Assembly (NCBI RefSeq): GCF_039555335.1
Contig: NC_092647.1
Span: 15,486,094 to 15,550,093, forward strand
Length of the DNA stretch: 64,000 nucleotides
From: Amphiura filiformis
Taxonomy: Eukaryota > Echinodermata > Ophiuroidea > Amphilepidida > Amphiuridae
Reading direction: 5' to 3'
In this document: positions 53,201 through 58,421 of the stretch, piece by piece
How the letters are laid out: the number at the start of each line of letters is the position of its first letter
Position numbering within the stretch: the stretch's first letter is position 1
Made by a program: the position numbers and the translations under genes
Notes under the pieces: model-generated
Seen by the model: the letters and a program-made list of their open reading frames with translations, nothing else
What the model was told of the DNA's origin: nothing
Database searches by the model: none

Positions 53201-56200
53201 ATAATACACTTCAGTGCATGCATAATCAAAGCAACCACCCGCCTTCTATTCTTAAGAACATACCGGAAAGTATAAACATCAGACTATCCAACATTTCCTA
53301 ATGAGGAAATATTCAACAATGCAGCTCCCGCCTATCAAGATGCACTTAATAAAAGCGGTTATGATTATAAGCTGAAGTACAGCCCTAAACCTATCAATCA
53401 TCAACCAGACAAACGCAACAGGAAGCGTAATATCACTTGGTTCAATCCGCCCTTCAGTGATACAGTTGAAACTAATGTCGGCCAGAAATTCCTCTCACTC
53501 TTGGATAGGTGCTTTCCTCCTGAACATCAACTTCACAAAATCCTCAACAGAAATACCATAAAAATCAGCTACAGTTGCATGCCTAATATGCATCAGATCA
53601 TTTCTGGACATAACAAATCCATTCAGGCTAATCTCAATGTATCTTCAACGGATTCTTCTAGACCATGTAACTGTAGGCGCAAATCCGATGCCCCTAGATG
53701 GCAATTGTCTTACACCATCAGTCATTTATCAGGCTTCTGTAACTCGGGATGATACTCAAACAAAGGAATCTTATGTTGGACTAACGGAAGGACCATTCAA
53801 AACTAGATTCAACTGCCATACCAGCTCATTCAAGAATGAAAAAACATCGTAACGCCACCACTCTCAGCCAATATATATGGTCTTTAAAGGACAAGAATAT
53901 TAACTACTCAATTGCATGGAGAATAATCACACGTGCAAAGCCTACTCTCCAAATACAAAGAGATGTAATTTGTGCTTGACTGAAAAATATTATATCATTT
54001 ATAAACCACTTATTTCAACTCTTAATAATAGAAATGAACTTGTGAGTGCTTGTAGACATAAGAAGAAGTACTTATTGTGTAACATTTGATACCTTGACTT
54101 TTGCCAAGGCCTATATGCCTTTTTATTGGAACTTTATCATTGACTTTTATAGTCGCTCATAATTTATGTCAGACTTTTTATAGACACTTTAATTAGCTCA
54201 ATGCTGTGTTTTGGCCCACCCAGCCAGGTCATGGCCAGGTATATTTTGCTTGTGCTCTCATTCAACTGAGGAGTGTAGGTGTGACAACACCTATACGAAA
54301 CAGTTCTGTATTGAATGATGATGTAAATAATAAATTCACTACATTTAAAAATATATTCCTGCTCCTTTTTAGTTGAGCACTTTATCTGTAGTGATGGTTT
54401 CATCTAAGTTTATTCTTGTTGTAATCCTGCTCCTAATTTTGTTGAGCACTCTGGAAACCAACATGGATCAAGTGAATTTTGATTATTCTACAAAGAATAT
54501 ACCTGCACCAGCACAGAGAGACTATTTAAAGTGTCTGATTGGCAAGACAGAGAAATTTCTTCGGGCAATAAGATGGAGATCTTTTTTCTTCCTACACCCG
54601 GAAAATAGACCCAAGCCAAAGGAAACTTACGGATTTAAGTCAAGCAAATCCCCACCGCCTATACCGGAGTTGAAGGACTTTGAAGATGGTATGCTCAACT
54701 TAGTCCAGAACATCAAATTTAGGCGGCAAAACAAACCATTCCAAAACAAGCTCCGCAGTGATGTAAACAAATTACGTGAGGATGACAAGCTTCTTATCTC
54801 TGCCGACAAGACCACAAACTTTTACAAACTACATCCTGATCAATATAACAAATTGATGGAAGGCAACATCACCAAATCATATAAGAAAACAACCGAACAT
54901 ACTGAAAAGAATATCACCTCTACTGACAGAAAGATTGCCTCAGACTTAGACCTGGATGACCGCATTGAAATTACCGCTCATAAGCAAGCCTTTGTTACTT
55001 TAAAGGATCATAAACCGAACTTCTCTAACAAACCTACATGTCGTCTAATCAACCCTACAAAATCTGAATTAGGGAAAGTCAGCAAGAAAATCCTCGATGA
55101 TATTAATTAAGAGATTCTCAACAAATGTCCTTTCAACCAATGGAAAAACACGGATGCCGTTATTAAGTGGTTTAATGCTATTGATGAGAAACCCTCCAAA
55201 TCATTCATCGTGTTTGACATATGCGATTTTTATCCATCAATTTCTAAGGAATTAATGCTCGATGCCATCAAATTTGCTTCGTCTTATGTCAATATTTCCC
55301 AACAGGACATTGATATAATTCTTCATGCTAAACAATCACTGCTCTATGATAATGACATATCTTGGCGTAAACGTTCTAAATCAAACTTTGACGTAGCTAT
55401 GGGGAGCTTTGATGGAGCGGAAACCTGTGAATTAGTTGGACTGTACCTACTTTCTCAGCTACAGCAAGTCGGTATTAACATCGGACTATATAGGGACGAT
55501 GGTCTTGCTGTTTGTTCTAAATCTCCCAGACAGGTCGAGCAAATTAAGAAAAACATATGCAAAATCTTCTCAAACAATGGACTCAAAATCACCATTGACG
55601 CGAACAAAAAATCAGTGAACTATCTTGATATCAACATGGACCTGAGTGATGGCACATATAAACCATACATGAAGCCGAATAATACACTTCAGTACGTATA
55701 TAATCAAAGCAACCACCCGCCTTCTATTCTTAAGAACATACCGGAAAGTATAAACATCAGACTATCCAACATTTCGTCTAATGAGGAAATATTCAACAAT
55801 GCAGCTCCCGCCTATCAAGATGCACTTAATAAAAGCGGTTATGATTATAAGCTGAAGTACAGCCCTAAACCTATCAATCATCAACCAGACAAACGCAACA
55901 GGAAGCGTAATATCACTTGGTTCAATCCGCCCTTCAGTGATACAGTTGAAACTAATGTCGGCCAGAAATTCCTCTCACTCTTGGATAGGTGCTTTCCTCC
56001 TGAACATCAACTTCACAAAATCCTCAACAGAAATACCATAAAAATCAGCTACAGTTGCATGCCTAATATGCATCAGATCATTTCTGGACATAACAAATCC
56101 ATTCAGGCTAATCTCAATGTATCTTCAACGGATTCTTCTAGACCATGTAACTGTAGGCGCAAATCCGATGCCCCCTAGATGGCAATTGTCTTACACCATC

Positions 56201-58421: not shown

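Follow-up and report, generated by a model that had tools for sequence, protein, structure and literature searches.

Two putative hammerhead ribozymes within a tandem Penelope-like insertion in a ferrochelatase intron of Amphiura filiformis

The window analysed here is the whole stretch of 64,000 nucleotides of Amphiura filiformis DNA (contig NC_092647.1, positions 15,486,094 to 15,550,093, forward strand), and all coordinates below refer to it. A tblastn search with human ferrochelatase as probe located nine coding stretches of the ferrochelatase gene (FECH) between 39255 and 58418, + strand. Six of them precede and three follow a Penelope-like element (PLE) that lies in sense relative to the gene. 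The host intron and its two neighbouring exons are as follows.

51751..51858, + strand: ferrochelatase exon upstream of the intron (tblastn; boundaries by eye)
51859..57020, + strand: ferrochelatase intron, 5162 nt, of which 4267 nt are Penelope-like; GTAAGT donor and CAG acceptor
57021..57185, + strand: ferrochelatase exon downstream of the intron (Pfam Ferrochelatase E 4.5e-17; PDB 1hrk_A E 7.6e-24)

Both the donor and the acceptor of this intron display consensus letters. An earlier examination of the letters, referred to here as the sequence-only reading, had named it intron 7. It is indeed a ferrochelatase intron, found between the sixth and the seventh of the nine coding stretches, but the number 7 requires one further 5' exon and none was found. 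In the literature on ferrochelatase, hammerhead ribozyme and intron together, no published description of this locus was found; the one paper in which the three coincide apparently deals with a mitochondrial tRNA synthetase.

Several other repeats were observed in the window. The preceding FECH intron holds a short inverted-repeat element (50914-51136) with 57-bp arms that are 86% alike. A fold-back element occupies 52129-52330; its part 52129-52314 is 80% identical to the reverse complement of itself, and another copy of the element (79% identity) is present at 61307-61500. At 52433-52505 (+), ~ 65 nt upstream of the Penelope-like insertion, a tRNA-like sequence scores 42.6 bits with the Rfam tRNA model; ARAGORN assigns it no amino acid, its acceptor and T stems contain mismatches and blastn shows no second copy in the window. 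It may represent the head of a tRNA-derived SINE. Furthermore, satellite-like arrays are located at 1146-2075 and 24784-25424 (a 45-bp unit in 20.6 copies, and T-rich units of ~ 77-87 bp) and a 167-bp tandem duplication with 94% matches at 63274-63608.

Within the ferrochelatase intron, the region 52570-56836 consists of a truncated Penelope-like unit followed head-to-tail by one of 2480 nt, with AT-rich runs at both junctions.

52562..52571, + strand: TA run at the 5' junction of the insertion (from the letters)
52570..54356, + strand: Penelope-like unit 1, 5'-truncated, 1787 nt; its end region (pseudo-LTR) carries hammerhead 1 (alignment with unit 2)
54357..56836, + strand: Penelope-like unit 2, 2480 nt; its end region (pseudo-LTR) carries hammerhead 2
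56831..56858, + strand: AT run at the 3' junction of the insertion

The arrangement found, a partial tandem with pseudo-LTRs and 5' truncation at an AT-rich insertion site, is the one expected of PLEs; part of the 3' AT run may belong to the element itself. On blastn the two units display 99.2% identity over 1785 aligned positions, with 6 mismatches in two clusters and 7 indels. As judged by eye, all but one of the 7 indels consist of one base more or less within a single-base run, so that sequencing errors may account for the frame breaks in either unit, from which nothing is therefore drawn. The tandem could itself be partly an assembly product, which would make the copy number or the letters of the units unreliable, and both the number of indels relative to mismatches and their position in single-base runs, a pattern of long-read errors, are compatible with this. 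We nevertheless regard it as unlikely, given that the outer flanks of the units are distinct, that the substitutions are clustered and that partial tandems are described for PLEs in the corresponding part of the literature (PMC3846280). At the start of unit 2 (54357-54455), two similar TGCTC...GAGCA stretches form weak predicted hairpins (-4.8 and -5.6 kcal/mol); as a guess, these might be a binding or priming site of the element RNA.

The coding remnants of unit 2 were next considered as three reading-frame pieces.

54373..55110, + strand: reading-frame piece (stop to stop) before the reverse transcriptase (RT) core, no Pfam match
55111..56178, + strand: reading-frame piece with the RT motifs FDICDFY and YRDDG, weak Pfam RVT_1 match
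56157..56570, + strand: reading-frame piece in which a GIY-YIG-like endonuclease pattern (YVG, KRCNLC) is discerned by eye, no Pfam match

As to the telomerase-like RT expected of PLEs, the RVT_1 profile matches one of the three pieces with E 0.0058 and 16.8 bits (cut-off 29.6) and neither of the two scanned pieces of unit 1. We take the two RT motifs to be typical of PLEs. Pfam gave no GIY-YIG endonuclease match in the third piece, whose YVG and Cys pattern was recognised by eye. Cysteines that recall the Neptune-like Cys-rich domain between RT and endonuclease (CNC, CPLDGNC) are present, in different frames. Neither the RT piece nor the endonuclease piece gave an AlphaFold model good enough for a fold search (mean pLDDT 32.5 in one case and 37.6 in the other), and among PDB sequences the RT piece had no match at E<=1. 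Single-protein queries, by which close relatives only are reachable, revealed no relatives of the RT and endonuclease pieces in viral contigs and none of the RT piece in bacterial or archaeal genomes, these collections being without animal genomes. Among ten further long reading frames of the window, Pfam displayed one sub-threshold BESS match and nothing else. The probable assignment to PLEs hence relies on how the tandem is built, on the RT motifs and on the hammerheads rather than on a strong profile match.

The hammerheads and the neighbouring AATAAA hexamers of the two end regions are listed below.

54259..54317, + strand: putative hammerhead ribozyme 1 (type I), predicted cut 54310/54311, recognised by its core, stems and identity to the second copy; RF00163 25.1 bits, below the cut-off
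54329..54334, + strand (sense): AATAAA in the unit 1 end region
56739..56797, + strand: putative hammerhead ribozyme 2, identical to 1, predicted cut 56790/56791; RF00163 25.1 bits, below the cut-off
56809..56814, + strand (sense): AATAAA in the unit 2 end region, the element ending 27 nt past its first base

The two 59-nt segments are letter-identical, as are 20 flanking bases on either side, and both are equally far from the end of their respective unit. The core letters are CUGAGGA, GAAA and the triplet GUA, in which the A is the residue preceding the cut. Stem I is an unbroken 8 bp (7 inside the 59 nt), stem II comprises 10 bp, one of them G-U, and is capped by a GACA loop, and stem III (ACAG-UU-CUGU) has 4 bp with a UU loop or, alternatively, 3 bp with a 4-nt loop. 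In view of the loop-loop tertiary contacts of canonical hammerheads, stems I and II were inspected by eye, and no internal loop was seen. Both copies therefore display the type I arrangement, with a CUGANGA ... GAAA ... UH core, three stems and ends in stem I. Two identical type I hammerheads with an invariant core and a 10-bp stem II had been proposed by the sequence-only reading, and they were confirmed at their positions; the spacing of 2480 nt (56739-54259) and the predicted 5' ends after cleavage, 54311 and 56791, agree with our recomputed values. The further claim of one hammerhead per Penelope-like copy, along the direction of FECH transcription, is supported as well, each motif being inside the repeated end region. 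However, copy 2 is no independent evidence for the motif because it is part of the duplicated unit.

In the 64 kb, on both strands, a core-plus-stems pattern finder detected these two hammerheads and no others. First-order Markov sequences of the same length, drawn from the window's own chain, were used as the chance model and gave 4 matches in 200 sequences, and 5 in 1000 under slightly different loop limits. When stems of at least 7, 8 and 4 bp were required no match was found in 1000 sequences, while dropping the stem III requirement resulted in 20 matches in 1000 against the same two observed. A covariance check with Rfam, suggested by the sequence-only reading, gave a divided answer. Across the whole window no Rfam hammerhead reached the gathering score, the sole Rfam report being the tRNA, and a 4.6-kb scan returned none at E<=10. 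In 121-nt scans, RF00163 did align at both copies over the model's whole length with the core in place; the score stays below the gathering cut-off of 34 bits, which is a curators' threshold and no defining feature of the fold, and the E value is 1.9e-4 for 121 nt or ~ 0.1 when scaled to 64 kb. RF00163 had no match in the record behind locus L001 (0/1) or in 14 control genomes (0/14), an uninformative outcome. A hammerhead DNA pattern noticed in four stretches of viral contigs was dropped as chance, the pattern finder detecting the three stems in none of the four loci. That both hammerheads would be chance hairpins and no ribozymes, as the sub-threshold Rfam scores could suggest, is extremely improbable in view of the null result at similar stem lengths, the presence of every core base and the location inside a Penelope-like element. 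Taken together, the hammerhead motif looks real, but it would be the transposon's own and of a known kind.

The predicted secondary structures are less favourable. Indeed, the minimum-energy fold of a single 59-mer (-21.8 kcal/mol, z -4.37 versus shuffles) is not the hammerhead but an inactive fold in which the core CUG pairs with the CAG of stem III at a probability of 0.84-0.85, inactive pairs overall ranging from 0.70 to 0.85. The hammerhead structure proper, its stem III taken as 3 bp, is found at -17.8 kcal/mol with a probability of 0.0007. For two 59-mers the RNAcofold minimum is a double hammerhead, with stems I and III formed between strands, at -46.4 kcal/mol compared to 2 x -21.8 for the inactive monomers. 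Most of the inter-strand stem I forms in this pair of RNAs (0.44-0.98 from one position to another), and stem III pairing increases from at most 0.002 in the lone 59-mer to ~ 0.15, in line with the published dimer view of such motifs; this remains below the within-strand inactive pairs (0.32-0.47), hence the double hammerhead is a minority species. In a 2651-nt transcript (54200 to 56850), pair probabilities of the double hammerhead in cis do not exceed 0.003, those of stem III of copy 1 do not exceed 0.013, and the minimum-energy structure shows the inactive fold at both copies. Since all these figures come from energies of secondary structure that take no account of Mg2+, tertiary contacts, protein or co-transcriptional folding, the predicted folds would argue weakly against ribozyme activity. 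On the other side, the two copies share one transcript, and according to the title of a 2017 article by Luense et al. small PLE hammerheads reportedly cleave RNA as dimers.

In the review sections that deal with them, PLE hammerheads are presented as minimal, usually without helix III and tertiary contacts, with a role that is not known, and they may self-cleave as dimers (PMC7761336, PMC6155905). The statement of the sequence-only reading that hammerheads in Penelope-like pseudo-LTRs are already established is borne out by these same sections. Our motifs share with the minimal type I PLE hammerheads, as these are outlined in the literature (Cervera and De la Pena 2014; Luense et al. 2017), the type I core, the end-region location, the presence of one motif per tandem unit, a weak stem III and a predicted gain when two copies pair. 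They differ by the 4-bp stem III, which is usually absent according to the reviews (PMC7761336, PMC6155905).

A closer comparison is possible with PAc, the Poseidon of Anolis carolinensis. According to the part of the PAc study devoted to the ribozyme, its hammerhead cut only with purified element protein, was dispensable for insertion and had no RNA-seq ends at its site (PMC11167929). Both elements are tandem PLEs with a hammerhead near the ORF start and AT-rich targets. As described in that part of the study, however, the PAc start codon is inside the hammerhead, whereas here cut 1 precedes the in-frame ATGs of unit 2 at 54394 and 54463; the description of the PAc hammerhead comprises stems I and II with loop II, while a stem III is present here; and the copy examined here ends in the end region rather than inside the ORF (PMC11167929). 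Metazoan retrozymes likewise have type I hammerheads in tandem units and possible circles, but in the portrayal available their RNAs are ~ 170-400 nt and non-autonomous (PMC7229834), in contrast to a 2480-nt unit with RT coding remnants. A retrozyme identity was accordingly rejected, the unit being too long and containing coding remnants. Intronic hammerheads have already been reported in animal genes, RECK and others, and the amniote examples resemble ours in being type I and in the intron of a protein gene; in the review's account they are conserved across species (PMC6155905), whereas here the motif arrives with a transposon of two near-identical units. The possibility of a conserved host ribozyme was also rejected, as no evidence supports it.

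The sequence-only reading had further proposed co-transcriptional cutting of the FECH pre-mRNA with release of a 2480-nt monomer and an influence on splicing. Cuts at 54310 and 56790 would free the monomer in linear or circular form and change splicing or FECH level. The sense orientation within the intron, the complete cores, the identity of the copies and the position of cut 2, just 230 nt upstream of the acceptor, are consistent with such an action. The ribozyme of Cpeb3, which belongs to the HDV-like class and is not a hammerhead, offers a precedent. In the mouse, as summarised in the source, this intronic self-cleaving ribozyme changes its host mRNA (PMC10919898), so that a ribozyme effect on a host gene is not absurd. 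Nonetheless, the predicted folds favour the inactive form, and the PAc ribozyme, in the account cited, required protein and left no RNA-seq ends (PMC11167929). Moreover, with units that are 99.2% identical nothing indicates long host selection. Finally, the inserted copy extends 46 nt past cut site 2, which speaks against monomer release and implies that the template either had escaped cutting at that site or was a re-closed circle whose copying began internally; ~ 1.7 rounds on such a circle would give this partial tandem equally as well as a tandem transcript would. Hence the proposed cutting, monomer and splicing effect are not supported by the inactive predicted folds, the copy end past cut 2 and the protein need of PAc, and we consider an action of the hammerheads on FECH quite unlikely.

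An effect on FECH, if any, might instead pass through the sense polyadenylation signals (AATAAA at 54329 and 56809), which would end transcripts within the intron independently of the ribozymes. Their presence in both end regions, 27 nt from the element end, is in agreement with this route. On the other hand, six AATAAA/ATTAAA are counted in the intron, which is 63% A+T, so that the hexamer alone means little. This route is distinctly improbable, and as a way to a FECH effect it is equally cheap as the ribozymes.

In a more elaborate scenario, the two hammerheads would associate in cis across 2480 nt and cleave jointly, setting free a transposon monomer in circular form, with FECH splicing rescued by exon tethering. 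Dye et al. 2006 are said to have described such tethering, by which a cut intron can still be spliced; an intronic cut therefore need not harm splicing. We judge this scenario very unlikely. If it were true, the cis double hammerhead would turn the host gene into a promoter for a transposon circle.

The locus is very probably explained by the insertion of a Penelope-like retrotransposon in a FECH intron, with the hammerheads as the element's own ribozymes that cut little in the FECH pre-mRNA. The element would have entered an AT-rich site of the intron in sense orientation, in the form of a partial tandem of a 1787-nt truncated unit and a 2480-nt unit, and the hammerheads would be present twice because the unit is present ~ 1.7 times. 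The motif presumably serves the element's RNA, with cutting that is probably most efficient in the double hammerhead of two paired copies and may even depend on help from the element's protein. In the FECH pre-mRNA there would be little cutting and the intron would be removed normally. Hammerheads in PLEs and in introns of animal genes were known before; no effect on FECH is indicated, and the locus most likely documents an ordinary transposon insertion. As a site where a host gene carries, in sense, both identical motifs on a single transcript, it would nonetheless provide a clean natural case for the role of PLE hammerheads, since the ends and the circle junction at this locus would be unambiguous if cutting occurred.
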